Positions 10,438-35,892 of a stretch of DNA of 42,181 nt are shown in pieces. Numbering within the stretch: position 1 is the stretch's first letter; each line of letters starts with the position of its first letter. This stretch comes from a virus. The stretch lies in the IMG/VR virus record IMGVR_UViG_3300006802_000185, positions 1-42,181 of that record; one strand, given 5' to 3'. A model generated the notes under the pieces. The model did no database searches and was not told the origin of the DNA. It worked only from the letters and a program-made list of their open reading frames with translations. The translations under genes were made by a program, and so were the position numbers.

Positions 10438-10852
10438 GAAAATTGTAGGATTCACAGCGAGCACATTTGATCTACTTCATGCGGGACACATTACAATGTT
10501 GCGCGAAGCAAAGGAACAATGTGATTATTTAATTTGCGGACTTCAGGTTGACCCATCTATTGATCGCCCAGGAAAAAATTCACCAGTACAAACTCTTGTT
10601 GAAAGATACACACAACTGTCAGGAGTTAAGTATGTTGATGAAATAATTCCATATCAAACAGAAGACGACCTCATTGATGTGCTTAACATGGTAAACATTG
10701 ATGTTCGAATTATTGGAGCAGAATATAAAGACACTGATTTTACTGGTCGATCTACTTGCGCTTCCCGAGGAATTGAGATATATTTTAACAAAAGAGACCA
10801 TAGATTTTCAACCAGCGATTTGAGACGTAGAGTATATGAATGTAATAATTAG
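10430..10852 (+). CDS. TagD-like cytidylyltransferase (HxGH nucleotidyltransferase)
   Basis: A 140-aa enzyme of the glycerol-3-phosphate cytidylyltransferase/RfaE-like family; TagD is about 130. The N-terminal GFTASTFDLLHAGHI contains the HxGH nucleotide site at residues 17-20. The C-terminal FSTSDLRRRV (about 127-136) is the ISTTxxR-type motif. RIIGAEYKD is the usual central strand. It joins CTP or ATP to a phosphorylated alcohol or sugar, giving a CDP- or ADP-activated donor. It overlaps the TET/JBP dioxygenase gene by 17 bases, which suggests that it prepares the group transferred onto hydroxylated DNA bases by the glycosyltransferase two genes down. The substrate cannot be read from sequence. 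Confidence 0.8.
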   Translation: MNKKIVGFTASTFDLLHAGHITMLREAKEQCDYLICGLQVDPSIDRPGKNSPVQTLVERYTQLSGVKYVDEIIPYQTEDDLIDVLNMVNIDVRIIGAEYKDTDFTGRSTCASRGIEIYFNKRDHRFSTSDLRRRVYECNN

Positions 10853-12149
10853 AGAGTCAAAAATAACTTGCGAACATTTGCTAGGAAAGTTTCTTGACGA
10901 AAATCATTACGACCAAATTATAAATGAAGACACCGATTTGTTTTTTGTAAACAAATCCCTTGGCGGTAATGCTGATGAGTCTAATTGCATTTTTAAATTT
11001 CGCAAGAATGTTTTTACTGCAAGCGAGCAGTCTGGTGCGTATGAAGGATTGGTTGGTGCAGCACAACCAACTCAAAATCGCGGACTCGCTGCTGGACCAA
11101 AAGAAGGTAAGTTAAACAATCGTGACTGGGTGACAGACTATCAGTTTGACATTATGGATTACTTTATTAAAGGTTCTTCCAACAGCGTTACAGGTGTCAG
11201 CGGACTAGACGAGATAGAATTATTTCATAAAAACAATAAAGATTCTGGTGCTAGAGGTATGGTATGGTTGCGCGAAAAAATATCATCTGCCGGATACACT
11301 TATGAAGATTTCTTTCAGAAGAAGTTAGAAGAATGGAAGTCAACCTCTCTTGAAGAAGCAAGAAAAGATGCTGCTTTGGTGAAGAAAACTTATGTTTCTG
11401 ATACATCCTATGCCAATCAGGTAAACTCTGGGATTGCTGGTTTCTATGATCGTTATCCAAGAATTCCTTATGGTAGAGCAACATCTTACACTGCAAAATA
11501 TCCAGAAGTCTTTTCTAAATGCTTTCCCTTTATGCAGAAACTTTCTTGTGAATTTAATGAACTTCTGCCCAACAGATTTTCTGCTCAAAACAACAAAGCA
11601 AATCTGCTGGACGAAAGGTTTCGAGTTGCTGGTACATCAACCCCTTTCACTACCATTACCGTGAATAAAAATTTCCGCACTGCCGCTCACAGGGACGCTG
11701 GTGACCTATCTGAAGGGTTCTCTAATCTAACTGTAGTTGCTAACGAAAAAGAATGGGAAGGAGGATATCTGGTGCTACCTGAATACAGAGTAGCAATTGA
11801 CGTTAGACCTGGTGACCTGCTTCTGATTAATAATCATGAAGGTATTCATGGCAACACTGAAATTAAACCACCTGCTGGTCAAAAACTTGAAGACATGGAA
11901 CGTATCTCTCTCGTTTGCTATTTCCGAGAAAAAATGCTAGAATTAGGCAGTTGGGAATATGAAAGTCACAGATATAATTTTGTTGAGTCCAGACGAAAAG
12001 AACGTAACGATCCAAAATTTAATGGTGTGACTGCAGGTATGTGGTCAAGCGATGAGTGGTATGATTATCTTCGAGATAACGGTGGCGAAGATATGCTACA
12101 GCAATACCACCCGCAAGTTGAAGCAGGAAGTTTAGCAGGATTTCTATGA
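10836..12149 (+). CDS. TET/JBP-family 2OG-Fe(II) DNA dioxygenase, 437 aa
   Basis: Probable DNA base hydroxylase acting on the 5-methyl group of a pyrimidine. The N-terminal 200 residues look like a family-specific extension. The catalytic core begins near 265 with FRVAGTSTPFTTITVNKNF. It carries AHRDAGD with iron ligands H285 and D287, then GGYLVLPEYRVAIDVRPGD, NNHEGIHGN (distal His most likely H338) and ERISLVCYFRE with the 2OG-binding R356. This order matches phage TET/JBP enzymes, some of which are known to oxidise 5-methylcytosine. The C-terminus SLAGFL resembles the polymerase tail (DLSAFLV), a possible clamp docking signal. It overlaps the genes on both sides (17 and 4 bases). T or 5mC is the likely target. 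Confidence 0.8.
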   Translation: MNVIIRESKITCEHLLGKFLDENHYDQIINEDTDLFFVNKSLGGNADESNCIFKFRKNVFTASEQSGAYEGLVGAAQPTQNRGLAAGPKEGKLNNRDWVTDYQFDIMDYFIKGSSNSVTGVSGLDEIELFHKNNKDSGARGMVWLREKISSAGYTYEDFFQKKLEEWKSTSLEEARKDAALVKKTYVSDTSYANQVNSGIAGFYDRYPRIPYGRATSYTAKYPEVFSKCFPFMQKLSCEFNELLPNRFSAQNNKANLLDERFRVAGTSTPFTTITVNKNFRTAAHRDAGDLSEGFSNLTVVANEKEWEGGYLVLPEYRVAIDVRPGDLLLINNHEGIHGNTEIKPPAGQKLEDMERISLVCYFREKMLELGSWEYESHRYNFVESRRKERNDPKFNGVTAGMWSSDEWYDYLRDNGGEDMLQQYHPQVEAGSLAGFL

Positions 12150-12952
12150 TAGATTATCAAATAGCAGTACCAAGTTATAAGAGACCAGTAACAATTCAAA
12201 ACAAAACTTTAAAAGTTTTTGAACAACATAACATTCCTCCTGAAAGAGTTACTATCTGGGTCGCTAATGAAGAAGAGTTTGAGTCGTACGATAAAGCACT
12301 TGGCGATCATAAATATGGACGCAACATAAGCATTGGCGTACCAACTATTGGTGCGCAACGTAACCATATTGAAAAGTCATATCCTGAAGGCACTTACCTT
12401 ATGATGTTTGATGATGACATCGAAGAAGTGCAACGAAGAAAAGACGAGAAAACTCTCGTACCGATTGATGATTTGTATTCTGAAATTATTGAGCAAGGTT
12501 TCAATAAATGCGTAGAAGTTGGTGCTAAAACGTTTGGAATATATGCAGCATCAAATGCATATTTTATGAAGGATCGAGTCTACACTAAACTTTGTTATGT
12601 TATTGCTTCTATGTTTGGTGTTATTGTTGAGCATGATGATTACCTTGCTCGCGTGACCAATCATGGCGAGGACTATGAGTACAGTCTGCGTCAATATGTA
12701 AAGAACGGTGTTTTGTGCAGACTGGACAACTACACTGTTAAAAGCAACTACTACAAAGAAGAAGGTGGGTTACAAACTGTTCGCACTAAAGAATATGTTT
12801 ATGAATCTATCGACAAGATCGCAAAAATGTTTCCGGACCTTTGTACGATGTACATACGAAAGTCCACTGGAAATGCTGAACTGAGACTTAGGGATACCTC
12901 AGGAGGCAGATATCAAAAAGTCGAATCATCCCTTGCTGATTTTCTTGTTTAA
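12146..12952 (+). CDS. TET-associated glycosyltransferase (TAGT-like), 268 aa
   Basis: GT-A-type glycosyltransferase. The N-terminal IAVPSYKRP (residues 6-14) begins the nucleotide-sugar fold. LMMFDDDIEEV carries the metal-binding acidic triplet D89-D91, preceded by GAQRNHI. NHGEDYEYSLR (about 172-182) is the acceptor-side acidic motif. These features and its position directly after a TET/JBP gene, with a 4-base ATGA overlap, fit the TET/JBP-associated glycosyltransferases described from phages, which glycosylate hydroxymethylated pyrimidines in DNA. The C-terminus SLADFLV is nearly the same as the polymerase tail. The stop at 12950-12952 is followed at once by an early-type promoter. Confidence 0.75.
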   Translation: MIDYQIAVPSYKRPVTIQNKTLKVFEQHNIPPERVTIWVANEEEFESYDKALGDHKYGRNISIGVPTIGAQRNHIEKSYPEGTYLMMFDDDIEEVQRRKDEKTLVPIDDLYSEIIEQGFNKCVEVGAKTFGIYAASNAYFMKDRVYTKLCYVIASMFGVIVEHDDYLARVTNHGEDYEYSLRQYVKNGVLCRLDNYTVKSNYYKEEGGLQTVRTKEYVYESIDKIAKMFPDLCTMYIRKSTGNAELRLRDTSGGRYQKVESSLADFLV

Positions 12953-29364: not shown

Positions 29365-30588
29365 ATGCTATCATTTGCAGACACATTAACAGAGCAAAAA
29401 AATACGCACATGACTCATATCGAGGACAAAGTGCTATATGGCGGTGTTAAAGGCACACGTCAAGCAATTTTTGCTCTGCGTGATCTTCGCGATATGTTAG
29501 GAGGCAAGAAAGAGGGAAGTGTATCAGTGAAGTGGGACGGTGCTCCCGCAATCTTCGCTGGTATTGATCCCAGGGACGGGCAGTTCTTTGTTGCTAAGAA
29601 GGGTATCTTTAACAAGAACCCAAAGGTCTATAAGACCAATGCAGAGATCGACGCTGATACGTCAGGCGATCTTTCTGCCAAACTGAAAGACGCTCTGAAA
29701 TATTTACCTGCTTTAGATATCAAAGGGGTAATTCAGGGCGACTTTCTGTTTGGGCGCGGAGACTTATCCACCGAAACAATTGATGGTCAAAAGTATGTGA
29801 CTTTTCACCCAAACACTATTGTGTATGCTGTACCTTACGAACAGTCGGCAGTTATACGCAGGGCAAAAATCGGTATTGTGTGGCATACTACATATACTGG
29901 TAGAACATTCGAGACTATGAAAGCATCTTATGGTGTGAACGTGAAGGCATTGAAGAAGTCTTCTAATGTTTGGTCTCAAGACGCAATGCTGCGTAATTTA
30001 ACCAGCGCAACCATGACTAAAAGGGAGACAGAAGATGTTAATGAAACTTTGGCAGAAATTGGTAGGATCTTCAACCAAATCTCAGGAAGTACCCTCCGAG
30101 AACTTGAAGGAAACCAAACCCTCGCCCAGCACATCGAAACCTACAACAACACATTCGTCCGTAAAGGAGAAATCATCGGAAACACCGTCGCGCACACGGA
30201 AAAACTCATCCGATGGATCAAAAGCAAGTACGGGAAAGAAATCGCCCAGCGAAAAACCCAAGCGGGGAAGACCTCGCAAAGACAAAAGCGAGACGAACTC
30301 CTCAACTTCTTCTCGCTCAAAAACAAAGTCAACTTAATACAGATGTTTGAGTTACAAAAATTAATTGTAACAGCAAAGTTAAAACTTATAAATAAATTGA
30401 ATAAACTTGGGAATGTAGATACCTTTGTAAAAACTCGCAAAGGATTTAAGGTAACGGGTGCTGAAGGATTCGTTGCCGTTGACCGACTAGGTGGTGATGC
30501 GGTAAAGATTGTTGATAGAATGGAATTTTCATACAACAACTTTTCGCCTGATATTTTGAAGGGATGGGATAAACCGACGAGGAAATAA
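29365..30588 (+). CDS. ligase-like nucleotidyltransferase with capsid-targeting-like N-terminus, 407 aa
   Basis: SVSVKWDGAPAIF contains KWDG at K56-G59, the motif I (KxDG) of ATP-dependent ligases and capping enzymes, with K56 as the adenylylation residue. GVIQGDFLFGRGD (about 119-131) is motif III-like. AEGFVAVDRLGGDAVKIVDR (about 368-387) matches motifs IV-V. It probably transfers AMP, as an RNA or DNA ligase. The first residues MLSFADTLTEQ resemble T4 capsid-targeting peptides, cut after L/I-x-E, so it may be packaged and injected. It is the first gene of a run of basic and enzyme-like late proteins. Ligation itself is unproved. Confidence 0.6.
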   Translation: MLSFADTLTEQKNTHMTHIEDKVLYGGVKGTRQAIFALRDLRDMLGGKKEGSVSVKWDGAPAIFAGIDPRDGQFFVAKKGIFNKNPKVYKTNAEIDADTSGDLSAKLKDALKYLPALDIKGVIQGDFLFGRGDLSTETIDGQKYVTFHPNTIVYAVPYEQSAVIRRAKIGIVWHTTYTGRTFETMKASYGVNVKALKKSSNVWSQDAMLRNLTSATMTKRETEDVNETLAEIGRIFNQISGSTLRELEGNQTLAQHIETYNNTFVRKGEIIGNTVAHTEKLIRWIKSKYGKEIAQRKTQAGKTSQRQKRDELLNFFSLKNKVNLIQMFELQKLIVTAKLKLINKLNKLGNVDTFVKTRKGFKVTGAEGFVAVDRLGGDAVKIVDRMEFSYNNFSPDILKGWDKPTRK

Positions 30589-30589
30589 G

Positions 30590-31018
30590 ATGGCAAAGCC
30601 ATTAAAGTTTAAAGATTTTCTAACTGTAGATTACACCGCCGACGGTGACGATCACATTAGTAACAATGCCAAAGATCGTAAGACTGAAGCATTAAACTTC
30701 CAGCAAAGAAGAGCTCGCGCTCGCCTCATGAAAAAAATGAAGGCGAAGATTGCAATGGGTCAAAGAAAAGCAAAAAAGAGAGCAGCAGACCCAGAAAGAT
30801 TATCTCGCAGATCCAAAAAAGCAGCAAGAGCTGCACTCTTTAAGAAATTTTCTAAAGGTAAATCAAAAGCAGAGTTACCGTTCGCTCGTAGACAAGAGAT
30901 TGAAAAGCGACTAGATAAAATGAAAGGGAGAATAGAAAAACTGGCAAGAAAACTTCTGCCGACTATTCGTAAAAGAGAAAAGGATCGTAGATCTGGAGCA
31001 AATAAAAGCGAGAAATAA
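30590..31018 (+). CDS. very basic head-type protein, 142 aa
   Basis: After LKFKDFLTVDYTADGDDHIS (about 5-24), the protein is Lys/Arg-dominated and helical (RRARARLMKKMKAKIAMGQR, then SRRSKKAARAALFKKFSKGK), ending KREKDRRSGANKSEK. It should bind DNA non-specifically, like the internal head proteins of T4-like phages. I recall very similar proteins in cyanophages. It begins one base after the ligase-like gene and abuts the nucleotidyltransferase gene (TAAATG). Confidence 0.7.
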   Translation: MAKPLKFKDFLTVDYTADGDDHISNNAKDRKTEALNFQQRRARARLMKKMKAKIAMGQRKAKKRAADPERLSRRSKKAARAALFKKFSKGKSKAELPFARRQEIEKRLDKMKGRIEKLARKLLPTIRKREKDRRSGANKSEK

Positions 31019-32236
31019 ATGATACCGTCATTTAAACAGTATCTCGTAGAAGAGGAACGCGAGATATTTTTCACTTTCGGAAGAATGAATCCTCCAACCG
31101 TTGGACACCAAAAACTGCTTGACGTTCTAAGTCGAAAGGCAGGTAGAAATCCATACAAGATTTTTCTTTCGCAATCAGTTGATGCCAAAAAGAACCCTCT
31201 CAGTTATCCGAACAAGATCAAGCACTCTAGGAAAATGTTTCCAAATCATGCAAGAAACATTTTACTCAATAAAAAAATTAAGAACGTTTTTGACGCAGCA
31301 ACCAACCTATACAACCAAGGATATAAAAAAGTCACAATGGTTGTTGGTCAAGATCGTATCGTAGAATTCGAGACTCTGTTAAACAAGTACAACGGAGTCA
31401 AAGGTAAGCACGGATTTTATAACTTCGAACGGATAAACGTTGCTTCTGCTGGTGATAGGGACCCAGACTCAGAAGGAGTTGAGGGCATGTCGGCGAGCAA
31501 ACAGCGCGCGAACGCTGCTTCAAATGATTTCACATCATTTCAACAAGGCGTTCCTTCCAAAATGTCTACAGTAGACACGAGAAAACTGTTTAATGATATT
31601 CGTGTTGGTATGGGTATGAAAGAGTCTAAAGATTTTAAACAGCACATCGATTTGGGTCTTCTTAGTGAAACCAGAGAAAAGTATATAAATGGTGAATTGT
31701 TTGAACCAGGCGATCGAGTAATAATTAAAGAAAATGGCAAATCAGGTTATATCTATCGACTTGGAGCAAATTACGTTATTGTTGCTTTAGATGAAGGCAG
31801 AGTTAGTAGGCAATGGTTAGATGGCATTGTATATGAAAAAACTGATCGATGGTACAAAGATCAACCTGAATGGGGAACTCCTGAATCCACCAAGAAAGCA
31901 AAAAAGATAACTCCTGGACAACAGGAAGAAGAATTGGATTTAGTTGACGCCATTGATCCAGTTAAAATTGCCAAAAATAAAATTGATCGCGAAAAAGAAC
32001 AAGATAAAGTTAAGCACGATCGAATGTTAGATCGAGCAAGAATTTCTCGCGCCAGAGCAAGAAACAGAAATACTGACCCTAATAAAAAAGATTCCAAGTT
32101 TGATTTTGTTACCAGAAGAGAAACAAAGAATCCTGTTGCTAAATTCTCACAAAAATTTAACAAAGCAAAAGTTGAACCTAATAAAAAGAAAGAAGTGAAA
32201 AAGGGTTATAGTAAACATAAGAAAAACTATAAATAA
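31019..32236 (+). CDS. HxGH-type nucleotidyltransferase with basic tail, 405 aa
   Basis: Residues 1-180 form a nucleotidyltransferase domain. FTFGRMNPPTVGHQKLLD holds the TxGH variant (T27-H30) of the HxGH motif. VTMVVGQDRIVEF is the central strand. SASKQRANA near 160 is the ISTTxxR-like motif. It resembles NMN adenylyltransferase-type enzymes. From about 215 the protein is a small beta domain (FEPGDRVIIKENGKSGYIYR) and then a long Lys-rich tail. The N-terminus MIPSFKQYLVEEE looks like a T4-type capsid-targeting peptide cut after L-V-E. The last codons TAT AAA TAA form the next late promoter. Confidence 0.65.
   Translation: MIPSFKQYLVEEEREIFFTFGRMNPPTVGHQKLLDVLSRKAGRNPYKIFLSQSVDAKKNPLSYPNKIKHSRKMFPNHARNILLNKKIKNVFDAATNLYNQGYKKVTMVVGQDRIVEFETLLNKYNGVKGKHGFYNFERINVASAGDRDPDSEGVEGMSASKQRANAASNDFTSFQQGVPSKMSTVDTRKLFNDIRVGMGMKESKDFKQHIDLGLLSETREKYINGELFEPGDRVIIKENGKSGYIYRLGANYVIVALDEGRVSRQWLDGIVYEKTDRWYKDQPEWGTPESTKKAKKITPGQQEEELDLVDAIDPVKIAKNKIDREKEQDKVKHDRMLDRARISRARARNRNTDPNKKDSKFDFVTRRETKNPVAKFSQKFNKAKVEPNKKKEVKKGYSKHKKNYK
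32228..32235 (+). promoter_or_regulatory. T4-type late promoter
   Basis: Exact TATAAATA made by the Tyr-Lys-stop codons of the preceding gene. The ATG at 32242 is six bases downstream, so the transcript would be leaderless or nearly so. Confidence 0.85.
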
Positions 32237-32241
32237 AGTTT

Positions 32242-33681
32242 ATGGAAAACGAACAAGTAAAATCATCTGACTTTAAATTAGTCAAGTATCGCGATCCCGA
32301 AACAGGAAAAATTAAGTTTCGGAAAAAGCGAACAGACGATGCTATAGTTCAGCAAGAGAAAGCAGTTTCTAAAGCACAACAAAAGTTTTTTGGCATGGTT
32401 CGCGCAAAACAGAAAGGCGAAATGCCCAACGCTTCTCCAGAGATTAAGAAGGCAGCAGCATCTATGAGCAAGAAAGACGTTAAAGACTTTGCCGCTACTA
32501 AGCACAAAGGATTGCCAGCAAAGAAAGAATCTACTGACGCTTACGGCAAGTCTATGGATGCTATCGCTAACAAAAAGAAGAAAGCAGCGATCAGTAAACC
32601 CGACCTTGATAAACTCTCAAAACTTAAAGATTTGATGAAAAAAGCAAACGAAGGATTCGCGGTTAAATACAACAATCCTGGACACGAAAAGCATGGTCGC
32701 GAAAAACATTTCGACAATAAAATGAGCGCCGATAAGCATGCTGCCCGAGGCAATAAAGTTGATAAAGTTGGCGGCAAATATACTGTCCACAAAACTAACG
32801 ATAAAGGTCATACAGTCGAAGCAACGATGGCAGATAAAAATGGTCCAGGAAAAGGTAAAGACATGAGAGATATGTCTAAGTTGGATCATGCCAAGGCAAG
32901 AGACTATCATCAATATAGAGTTAAGACTAAAGGCGACTATCACTCCAAGATGGCAAAGATTCATCATGCTAATGCTATCGGCGGTAGTTCTATGTTACAC
33001 AAAGAAGACAACATCAAAGAACTTTCGCCGGACACTGTTAAGAGATATCGCGACAAAGCATCTGACGATCAACCAAGACAAAAGCGTATCGCTCATGACT
33101 ACGCGACCAGGACAGGCGATAACAAGTCAGACTGGACTGATAAGATGGCGAAGGTTCATCAACGCGCAGCAGATAATCGATCTAAAGGTATCGCTCGAGC
33201 AAATTCTCGCCTCGCAAAAGAGGACACTGATTTTACGCCTCGTGACACTAATGTTTTAAAAACATTTGAAGATTTTAAATCTGATCTTGCAAAACGTAAG
33301 GCAGCAAATTTAGCAAAACGTGGTGCTCGTCGTGGACCAGCAAAAGGGACTGCTAAAAAAGACGGTGATTGGGATCAAAAAGCAGCAAAACCTTTAGATT
33401 TCGAAATTAAGAGCAACGATCACCACTCAACTGTTCATAACACATTAGCAAAAGCAGCTGACGCCATGCATCCTAGTTTAGGTGGAAGAAAAGTTTCTTT
33501 AAAGATTGGTGGTAAAACTAAAGTTTACAGCAATCACAAAGATTTACAACACGTTGTTGACTACCATAGTAAATTAAAAGACAAAGGTCAGAAGGCAGAC
33601 TTGATGCGTTCTGTTCGTTCTGGTGGTCATGAAGCAATTTCTAAACATACGTCAGTTTATAGAAAGGTAACGAAACAATGA
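32242..33681 (+). CDS. Lys-rich late protein, probable internal head protein, 479 aa
   Basis: A basic, low-complexity protein with many short Lys/Ala/His patches and several acidic breaks (KKESTDAYGKSMDAIANKKK, then HKEDNIKELSPDTVKRYRDK and LAKEDTDFTPRDTNVLKTFE). The middle has YHQYRVKTKGDYHSKMAKIH-like repeats. The C-terminal 100 residues (VSLKIGGKTKVYSNHKDLQH) look folded. Segments such as LAKED and HKED could be cleavage or linker sites. It is read from a late promoter, begins without a ribosome site, and likely packs with DNA in the head. No named domain. Confidence 0.6.
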   Translation: MENEQVKSSDFKLVKYRDPETGKIKFRKKRTDDAIVQQEKAVSKAQQKFFGMVRAKQKGEMPNASPEIKKAAASMSKKDVKDFAATKHKGLPAKKESTDAYGKSMDAIANKKKKAAISKPDLDKLSKLKDLMKKANEGFAVKYNNPGHEKHGREKHFDNKMSADKHAARGNKVDKVGGKYTVHKTNDKGHTVEATMADKNGPGKGKDMRDMSKLDHAKARDYHQYRVKTKGDYHSKMAKIHHANAIGGSSMLHKEDNIKELSPDTVKRYRDKASDDQPRQKRIAHDYATRTGDNKSDWTDKMAKVHQRAADNRSKGIARANSRLAKEDTDFTPRDTNVLKTFEDFKSDLAKRKAANLAKRGARRGPAKGTAKKDGDWDQKAAKPLDFEIKSNDHHSTVHNTLAKAADAMHPSLGGRKVSLKIGGKTKVYSNHKDLQHVVDYHSKLKDKGQKADLMRSVRSGGHEAISKHTSVYRKVTKQ

Positions 33682-34034
33682 AAACATTTTCTGAGGTAAG
33701 ATCAAGAGCAGGTTCAGTAGCAAGAGGAACCCCAATTAAGACTGGTAAGGATCATCAGGTTCTTAATTATACCACACGTGGTGGCGAAAAAAGAAGCATT
33801 AAGGTGCATAAAGATAAAGCATTCTCAGCTCTTTCTCATTATCGTTCAATGGGTCATACAAACGTCCACTTAGAAACGAATGAAGCTTCGTGGAGAAAAG
33901 AAACTCCTTGGCGTAAAGTAAAGGACGGTGACCGCAAAGACAAATACGGCAACACTGTTAAGGTTAAGAATATCGCTAAGAATCTTGCTCGTTCTGCTAT
34001 GAAGAAAACTGCCGCCGATAAGAAAGATAAATGA
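33678..34034 (+). CDS. small basic late protein, 118 aa
   Basis: The ATG overlaps the previous stop (ATGA). The protein starts MKTFSEVRSRAGS, close in style to the T4 internal-protein targeting peptide MKTYQEFIAE, then has GGEKRSIKVHKDKAFSALSH. The C-terminus is again Lys-rich (VKNIAKNLARSAMKKTAADK). It probably binds DNA or sits in the head interior. It overlaps the next gene by 4 bases. Confidence 0.6.
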   Translation: MKTFSEVRSRAGSVARGTPIKTGKDHQVLNYTTRGGEKRSIKVHKDKAFSALSHYRSMGHTNVHLETNEASWRKETPWRKVKDGDRKDKYGNTVKVKNIAKNLARSAMKKTAADKKDK

Positions 34035-34297
34035 AATCATTTAAGTCTTTTACAGAAGCCACCTATCAAGGCAAGAAAGTGACGCTTAACAAGCCAACGA
34101 AAGGCGATGTTAAGAAGTCAAAAGTCTATGTCGATCCAGATGGCGATGGAAAAGCACAAAAGGTAAATTTTGGCGACAAGAATATGACAATTAAGAAGCA
34201 CATTCCAGGTCGTCGTAAGAGTTTTAGAGCTAGACACAATTGTGATAATCCGGGACCAAAGGACAAGGCACGTTATTGGTCTTGTAAGGCTTGGTAG
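34031..34297 (+). CDS. basic late protein with FTEA targeting-like N-terminus, 88 aa
   Basis: The 88-aa protein begins MKSFKSFTEATYQGKKVTLN, which resembles the T4 capsid-targeting peptide with a cut after F-T-E. VYVDPDGDGKAQKVNFGD looks like an acidic loop that could bind calcium, then comes a basic KHIPGRRKSFRARHNCDNPG with C-terminal PKDKARYWSCKAW. That last C-x-W pattern recurs in T4-like phage small proteins. Probable head-interior protein. Confidence 0.6.
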   Translation: MKSFKSFTEATYQGKKVTLNKPTKGDVKKSKVYVDPDGDGKAQKVNFGDKNMTIKKHIPGRRKSFRARHNCDNPGPKDKARYWSCKAW

Positions 34298-34593: not shown

Positions 34594-35313
34594 ATGGATC
34601 GTAAAATCATAGATAAAATCGCAGCAGCTTGGCAGGAAGTTGTTGAGAAAAAACATAAAAAACTTGATCCTGTCGGAAAAGCAGATGCTGATATTGATAA
34701 CGACGGAGACGTTGATAAGTCTGACGACTACCTGCACAATCGTCGTAAGGCAATCAGCAAAGCAATGAAAAAAGAAAGTTGCTGCGACAAGTGCGGCAAA
34801 GACAAGTGCGAATGCGAAAAAGACGAAGCGTGCTGGGATTCTCATAAGCAAGTAGGTATGAAAAAGAAAGGTGATAGAATGGTTCCAAATTGCGTACCCA
34901 AAGAAGCAGTGGTTCATGACAAGTATGGTTACGGGGAAATTCTTTCAGAAAATGAAGATGGTACAGTAGATGTGCTGTTTGATTCTGAAGTTCAATTTAA
35001 TGTTCCCGTTGAAGAACTTTCTGCTATTTCAGAAAAACTTGGATTGCCAAAAAAATCTGGTCACGGTAAATCAGATCATGAAGGAATTACCGATAAAGAA
35101 ATGGCATCCAAATCTGCAAGAGATATGCTTGCTACTGTAAGCAAAGATAAAGACGATCGTGAAGCACAAAGTCACGTTGATGCGACTAAAGCTGGTCGTG
35201 CTGGAAAACCTTCACCTGCTCGTGGTCCTGCCGACAAATTGGGCAATGGTGATAAGTCAATAGTAAATCCTGTTAAAGGCGCTGTTACGCACACTACAGG
35301 AAAGGAGGGTTAA
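34594..35313 (+). CDS. EF-hand/dockerin-like late protein, 239 aa
   Basis: After a helical N-terminus, DADIDNDGDVDKSDDYL is a canonical calcium loop: D33, D35, D37, G38, D39 and D44 at the expected positions 1, 3, 5, 6, 7 and 12. A Cys-rich stretch follows (CCDKCGKDKCECEKDEAC, about 63-80), able to bind zinc or iron. VVHDKYGYGEILSENEDGTV is a small beta domain. The C-terminus is low complexity with Gly/Lys. An AGGAG site precedes ATG 34594. Likely a virion or head-interior protein; calcium binding is inferred. Confidence 0.6.
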   Translation: MDRKIIDKIAAAWQEVVEKKHKKLDPVGKADADIDNDGDVDKSDDYLHNRRKAISKAMKKESCCDKCGKDKCECEKDEACWDSHKQVGMKKKGDRMVPNCVPKEAVVHDKYGYGEILSENEDGTVDVLFDSEVQFNVPVEELSAISEKLGLPKKSGHGKSDHEGITDKEMASKSARDMLATVSKDKDDREAQSHVDATKAGRAGKPSPARGPADKLGNGDKSIVNPVKGAVTHTTGKEG

Positions 35314-35556: not shown

Positions 35557-35892
35557 ATGTCCGAACACACTATTGACGCCGAAGTAGCAAAACAGATCGA
35601 CGCAAATGGTGATGGGCATATCTCGCAAGAAGAATGGGATATGCATTTGGAATTTAAAAGAAAAGCACTCGAAGATCAAGACGCACAACGCGATGCCATT
35701 CGTAAGATGGCATGGTTCTCTCTTTTTGGTCTTTTAGTATATCCAGTAGGAATTGCTTTCACATCTCTACTTGGATTAGATACGGCAGCAAATCTGATTG
35801 CCGATATCGCACCAACATACTTTGCTTCTATTGCAGTGTTAGTCTCAGCATTCTTTGCTGCTGATGCTGTAAATGGTAGAAAAAAGGACTAA
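35557..35892 (+). CDS. EF-hand membrane protein, 111 aa
   Basis: DANGDGHISQEEW (D15, N17, D19, H21, S23, E26) is a classic EF-hand loop. A helical linker (about 28-48) leads to two hydrophobic segments (about 52-73 and 84-103), so the protein is a two-pass membrane protein with a calcium-binding N-terminus. It could be a calcium-sensing holin-like or envelope protein; that is speculation. Its short basic C-terminus (NGRKKD) would face the cytoplasm. Confidence 0.65.
   Translation: MSEHTIDAEVAKQIDANGDGHISQEEWDMHLEFKRKALEDQDAQRDAIRKMAWFSLFGLLVYPVGIAFTSLLGLDTAANLIADIAPTYFASIAVLVSAFFAADAVNGRKKD

Follow-up and report, generated by a model that had tools for sequence, protein, structure and literature searches.

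The window analyzed here, meaning the whole of the 42,181-base IMG/VR virus record IMGVR_UViG_3300006802_000185, is a fragment that derives from an ocean virus infecting bacteria and that carries T4-type replication genes. On its plus strand lie the genes for a 407-residue DUF6267 protein (29365..30588; PF19782, phrog_455) and for a 405-residue nucleotidyltransferase of the HIGH superfamily with a basic tail (31019..32236; phrog_395/3041 cytidyltransferase), hereafter the adenylyltransferase. The products of both genes begin with F-x-x-(F/Y/T)-(L/I)-x-E, that is, with the targeting and cleavage residues that have been defined in the capsid targeting sequence of bacteriophage T4. In the DUF6267 protein this capsid-targeting-like tag is MLSFADTLTE (29365..29394, plus strand), with a predicted cut after E10 and before Q; in T4 numbering it provides F4, T7, L8 and E10, a fit in which T rather than an aromatic residue occupies position 7 and LTE occupies positions 8–10. 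The tag of the adenylyltransferase, MIPSFKQYLVE (31019..31051, plus strand; predicted cut after E11 and before a second E), is a perfect fit, with F5, Y, L and E11 standing as the equivalents of F4, Y7, L8 and E10 and with LVE before the predicted cut. An earlier note on this DNA had likened these two N-termini, and those of two basic proteins encoded downstream, to the T4 tag. All four N-termini are present where that note placed them, and for the two enzymes the likeness is borne out: both match the genetically defined T4 positions and are conserved family-wide.

The yardstick comes from T4 genetics as summarized in section 2.6 of PMC9026906. (Our comparisons with the literature draw on parts of PMC9026906, PMC3037559, PMC10665884, PMC9602691, PMC9964418, PMC9146016, PMC9503650, PMC5512222 and PMC12774641.) According to that section, targeting to the T4 capsid depends mainly on residues 4 and 7 of a ten-residue tag, whereas processing by the prohead protease depends on residues 8 and 10; Asp at position 10 leaves targeting intact and abolishes cleavage. 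What the T4 internal proteins IPI, IPII, IPIII and Alt (PMC9026906; AF158101) have in common with the proteins described here is the position of the tag at the extreme N-terminus, the aromatic residues at 4 and 7, L or I at 8, Glu at 10 and a cut (here predicted) by a gp21-type protease. The window's phage group differs from T4 in having Phe, not Tyr, at position 4, and in its cargo, which comprises nucleotidyltransferases as well as numerous families that have no Pfam hit. A version of the pattern with F or Y as its first aromatic residue selects 2 of the 168 called genes in ~109 kb of T4, exactly those of IPII and IPIII; it misses two other internal proteins, IPI and Alt, such that the pattern is specific but incomplete. 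The same pattern selects 4 of the 208 called genes of Phage C48C1, all within 57.3–68.4 kb. Among isolates, C48C1 has the nearest relative of the window's DUF6267 protein (68% identity), followed by Stenotrophomonas phage DLP6, the Methylophilales phages Melnitz, Pelagibacter phage HTVC008M and many cyanophages.

To place these N-termini in context we used a sample made up of the window and 155 related IMG/VR loci that had been chosen for DUF6267. Of the 1985 distinct proteins called in this sample, 248 begin with the strict pattern M-x(0-7)-F-x-x-[FY]-[LI]-x-E, where 1.3 would be expected (maximum 5 in 300 shuffles), and the pattern occurs at only 5 of 8906 internal methionines; in another count it is found in 145 of 1352 distinct N-termini (0.8 in shuffles). 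Because the loci are related and were chosen for DUF6267, sequence counts are not independent, and similarity clusters give a better measure; there are 22 of them among the tagged proteins, the largest being a chain of several families joined by fusions. Among 108 distinct N-termini of DUF6267 proteins, F4 is present in 87, F or Y at position 7 in 78 and I or L at position 8 in 107, with positions 2, 3, 5 and 6 varying; among 68 distinct N-termini of the adenylyltransferase, the equivalents of F4 and of F or Y at 7 are each present in 55. These counts were anchored on the hydrophobic-x-E motif, and the independent test is therefore that at positions 4 and 7. In alignments made without the anchor condition, E10 is present in all 57 DUF6267 sequences (including that of the window, out of 153 open reading frames found), and both F5 and E11 are present in all 36 adenylyltransferase sequences (out of 96). 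That the shared N-termini reflect nothing more than chance or the ordinary ancestry of one family is a very improbable explanation: some tagged families are indeed linked by fusions, as in phrog_455, yet the number of clusters far exceeds what shuffling yields, four positions are retained even though the residues between them vary, and cyanophage members of the DUF6267 family lack the tag and start near the predicted cut. When Pfam models were run on 19 tagged proteins of other families, together with one scaffold protein as a control, only DUF5824 scored above the cut-off (in 1 of the 19); AAA_16 was found below the cut-off in another, and the remainder gave nothing or weak matches. One tagged protein (MKPFRKFITE; L034:16824-17540) has a weak match, below the cut-off, to the RNA 2'-phosphotransferase Tpt1/KptA (E 0.031), a family of the ADP-ribosyltransferase kind.

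The tag of the DUF6267 family (PF19782, phrog_455) is present in the window's phage group but absent in seven of the seven cyanophages examined (Syn1, S-SM1, S-SZBM1, DSL-LC02, S-CRM01, P-HM1 and S-CAM9). The DUF6267 proteins of S-SZBM1, S-CAM9 and DSL-LC02 start with MAKNTHLEHLED or MKNTHLEHLED, that is, at the predicted cut of the tagged relatives (TE/QKNTHMTHIED, the slash marking the cut). Because these untagged proteins start so near the predicted cut, the tag looks like a removable add-on ahead of a complete protein. In S-SZBM1 the tagged adenylyltransferase was detected in virions, and the adjoining untagged DUF6267 protein (_141) is not among the virion table rows listed. A protease and a capsid-protein site to go with the predicted cut are found in the relatives, namely in C48C1, and not in the window, which is a fragment. 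The gene order in C48C1 (portal, protease, scaffold, major capsid protein) is T4-like, with a gp21-type protease, and its capsid protein has GGFLTE before T where T4 gp23 has FLTE65 before A (position computed), E65 being the residue after which we take gp23 to be cut. At the same site in relatives of this capsid protein, [FY][LI]xE is present in 19 and [LI]xE in all 30 of 30 distinct sequences, as counted by eye. In C48C1 the annotated start of the cytidyltransferase (L082:21254-23031) omits a tag that can be read in frame just upstream, and the annotation may be short.

Homologues of the adenylyltransferase are listed in published virion proteomes of four cyanophages, in the portions of those papers that we drew on: S-SM1 (T4-GC190), S-CREM2 (gp154), S-SCSM1 (ORF91) and S-SZBM1 (_140). 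These cytidylyltransferase/NMNAT proteins belong to the same enzyme family as the window protein, and all four are tagged (MKKFSAFLNE, MKNFSSFLTE, MKSFLQFLKE and MRFRQFIIE, respectively); the tag is not mentioned in those portions, and the virion data concern the cyanophage homologues, whereas the window protein is known from sequence alone. In S-CREM2, the pattern with [LIVMF] at position 8 selects the S-adenosylmethionine hydrolase gp6, the kinase gp14, gp136 and gp154, and 4 of these 4 were detected in virions against a background of 50 of 213 coding sequences (p 0.0028; p 0.00025 when annotated structural proteins and endolysins are left out), position 8 having been widened from [LI] to [LIVMF] after S-CREM2 had been seen (with [LI], 3/3, p 0.012, calculated by hand). 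This test used annotated starts and excluded gp85 to gp88 and the large terminase gene, leaving 213 coding sequences and 50 of the 52 detected proteins. A looser pattern performs less well, with 5 of 9 matches detected (p 0.035), and the detected protein gp13 has a near-tag, MKDLHSFLTE. The Cas9-like S-CREM2 protein gp12 (L090:7704-10313), which is reported in virions, contains a near-tag, FASFMAE, at residues 19–25. The serine/threonine kinase g130 of S-CRM01 (L325:4167-6176) starts with the tag MISFDQFLSE, and a kinase is reported in S-CRM01 virions in the part of PMC10665884 that we used.

Virion detection of this kind might instead reflect carry-over of abundant late enzymes, with the tagged enzymes working in the producing cell. 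The S-CREM2 and S-SCSM1 authors raise this very point for such enzymes, and the reported nucleotidyltransferase peptides are few (three in S-CREM2 and two in S-SZBM1). Nevertheless, we consider carry-over unlikely: the nucleotidyltransferase is seen in four phages in four papers, tagged S-CREM2 proteins were detected more often than untagged ones, and, the Cas9-like protein aside, no replication enzyme appears on the S-CREM2 list. In addition to the caution of those authors and the widening of position 8 after the fact, several observations weigh against import of the two enzymes into the head. Profile scans of the window's proteins recognized no head genes, the window being a fragment, and late-promoter-like ATAAATA sequences are not enriched in it (9 observed, 12.4 expected). 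The nucleotidyltransferases of HTVC008M, Melnitz and DLP6 have a partial tag or none, and those of Syn1 and P-HM1 have no tag. DUF6267 was not seen on the published virion lists examined, as far as the parts used extend, and packaging of this protein therefore rests on its tag. SSCSM1_30 (MKTFKQFMSES) carries a tag under the widened pattern and yet is not marked as belonging to the virion. (In S-SCSM1 the counts were confined to annotated starts, because the widest regular expression gives chance matches at internal starts.) Finally, the N-terminal cut in the virion is a prediction.

Aromatic short linear motifs serve many kinds of docking, which raises the alternative that the motif at the N-terminus serves to dock the protein to a different late assembly (tail, membrane or replisome) rather than to bring it into the head. 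This general versatility, the predicted nature of the cut and the case of SSCSM1_30 would all accord with such a role. We nonetheless judge it decidedly improbable, given that the matching positions are precisely those used for targeting and processing in T4, that the pattern picks out two T4 internal proteins and nothing else from among the 168 called genes, that residues P3–P1 of the predicted cut are the same as those of the capsid-protein site, and that every tagged S-CREM2 protein was detected in virions.

Taken together, our findings suggest that the two enzymes are very probably T4-type head cargo, targeted by their tags, cut by the protease and injected together with the DNA. Their predicted targeting to the capsid is well supported; core binding, cleavage and injection we infer. 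The aromatic residues of the tag, within its first 10–11 residues, would bind the scaffold core of the prohead; a gp21-type prohead protease would cut after (L/I)-x-E, freeing the enzyme; DNA would be packed around the freed enzyme in the head; and the enzyme would enter the next cell together with the DNA. The earlier note had proposed that both enzymes may be packed in the head and injected, perhaps to repair or cap nucleic acid in the new host, a role that would be no more than possible. Packing gains from the tag match and from the tagged adenylyltransferase homologues in four virion proteomes, while injection stays at the level of inference. The mechanism proposed is that of T4; what is new is the cargo and its breadth.

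For both enzymes, nucleotidyl transfer is the likely predicted activity, with NAD- or CoA-type adenylylation (nicotinamide adenine dinucleotide or coenzyme A) and the joining of nucleic acid ends as leading guesses. The label of nucleotidyltransferase that the earlier note gave the adenylyltransferase is upheld by its structural model (predicted local distance difference test score, pLDDT, 83), which has a Rossmann-like fold that matches PPAT, NadM, NadD and NMNAT over residues 13–202, with Z of 12–13.7; the tag sits outside the fold. The T-x-G-H residues to which the note pointed are present and form an (H/T)xGH motif of which T27, G29 and H30 are invariant in the 36 aligned sequences. Such an enzyme would join a nucleotide to a phosphate-bearing cofactor precursor, the weakest step of the proposal, and might plausibly sustain the supply of NAD, or of a similar cofactor, in the early phase of infection. 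One possible, though doubtful, role would be to restore NAD in the newly infected host and so counter defences that deplete it. The fold matches include NMNAT, NadM and NadD, and NAD reconstitution by phages is known (PMC12774641 and PMC9503650, in the parts used), but PPAT chains score as high (a near tie, with Z of 13.7 for PPAT and 12.8 for NadM), and none of the window's genes was identified as encoding a partner enzyme from one of the known NAD pathways.

The DUF6267 protein is a full-length member of PF19782 (E 5.7e-103; 345.6 bits against a curated cut-off of 27). The lysine to which the earlier note had drawn attention, K56 of KWDG, is present, followed by E367-G-F-V and K381, and K56, D58, G59, E367, G368 and K381 are all invariant in the 57 aligned relatives. 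Covalent nucleotidyltransferases of the ligase and capping type have a motif I of KxDG, a motif IV of EG and a lysine in motif V. The "ligase-like" label of the note stands for the motifs, with no significant match in profile or fold. In hhalign comparisons with T4 ligase profiles, RnlA (T4 RNA ligase 1) gave a probability of ~1% and the RnlB family 0.2%, neither of which is significant, also when the helical insert was left out. KxDG and then EGYV or EGFV occur in the same order in RnlA and in DUF6267, and the best local alignment (probability ~1%) falls on the EGYVAV stretch of RnlA; however, the spacing of the motifs is 128 residues in RnlA as compared with 311 in DUF6267. The AlphaFold model of the DUF6267 protein is poor (pLDDT 72; predicted template modelling score, pTM, 0.50), and with this poor model a Foldseek search of the PDB returned no match at E<=0.001; matches of the model in BFVD are to its own family and to fusions. 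A sequence search of the PDB gave nothing useful for either enzyme. The phrog_455 profile contains both domains in one chain, DUF6267 first and then the cytidyltransferase, and an S-PM2 protein in BFVD that is named cytidyltransferase-like also matches the DUF6267 model. The KxDG protein would be a nucleotidyltransferase of the ligase type that forms a lysine-adenosine monophosphate intermediate, plausibly acting on nucleic acid ends, which is again the weakest step. We therefore entertain only tentatively the idea that the two enzymes form a unit for repairing the ends of RNA or DNA in which the KxDG protein is an RNA ligase and the T-x-G-H protein its partner: the order and invariance of the ligase motifs, the position of the best local match to RnlA and the fusions all favor it, but the profile match is not significant, the poor model gives no fold match, and the fusion may reflect merely a shared tag.

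Four genes for basic proteins, all on the plus strand, adjoin those of the two enzymes. The 142-residue product of the first (30590..31018; N-terminus MAKPLKFKDFLTVD) has the F-x-x-F-L targeting residues with Val in place of the cleavage Glu. Among 101 distinct N-termini of its family, F-x-x-[FY]-[LIVM] is present in 44, of which 27 have Val and 7 have Glu at position 10. The family thus keeps the targeting residues of the T4 tag while position 10 is mostly Val, which would suit a protein that undergoes targeting without subsequent release. Next to the adenylyltransferase gene lies that of a 479-residue protein with a weak DUF3008 match in a profile search and, on reading of its N-terminus, no tag (32242..33681). 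The 118-residue product of 33678..34034 (MKTFSEVRSR; 3 matches in all) hardly fits, having F4 alone and no L/I-x-E, and capsid targeting is not supported for it. In the 88-residue product of 34031..34297 (MKSFKSFTE/ATYQGKK), F4 and F7 are present and the Glu stands at position 9, after F-T, directly before a conserved YQGKK domain. Phe is found near the start in 29 of 34 distinct relatives, and in 21 of 34 a hydrophobic-x-Glu stands directly before the YQGKK domain; the leader of most relatives is longer and ends in hydrophobic-x-E, the window copy being a shortened version, and the family resembles the split propeptide form of T4 IPI. Capsid targeting of this product is partly supported. The earlier note was accordingly correct for both enzymes, half correct for the last of these basic proteins and mistaken for the 33678 product, and it had overlooked the one encoded at 30590.

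Elsewhere in the window, adjoining genes at 10836-12952 match a queuine tRNA-ribosyltransferase-like family and the beta-glucosyl-HMC-alpha-glucosyltransferase family, raising the possibility of DNA base modification. An EF-hand-like module (DPVGKADADIDNDGDxD-SD-YLH-RRKA) is encoded at 34594-35313 and recurs across otherwise different proteins of these phages, and a small protein encoded at 35557-35892 combines an EF-hand-like N-terminus with a hydrophobic, membrane-like part.

In a search limited to the open-access literature, we found no paper that describes tags of this kind for phages of the sea. The proteins that marine phages inject are mostly unknown, and the authors of cyanophage proteomes could not separate cargo from contamination. 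The tag offers a test that needs sequence alone and applies to any genome or metagenome; it puts forward DUF6267 and numerous families lacking Pfam hits as candidates for injection, and its prediction can be checked in existing mass-spectrometry data, as peptides beginning after L/I-x-E. A broader proposition, which we regard as evenly poised, is that ocean T4-like phages (Kyanoviridae and relatives) share one portable code for import into the head, a ten-residue tag placed before at least 20 unrelated families and existing in two grades, with Glu10 marking proteins that would be cut free and injected and Val10 marking proteins that would be kept on the core or the DNA. If this is true, then the opening ten residues encoded by each late gene would tell in advance which proteins are delivered into their hosts by phages that are among the most abundant in the sea.

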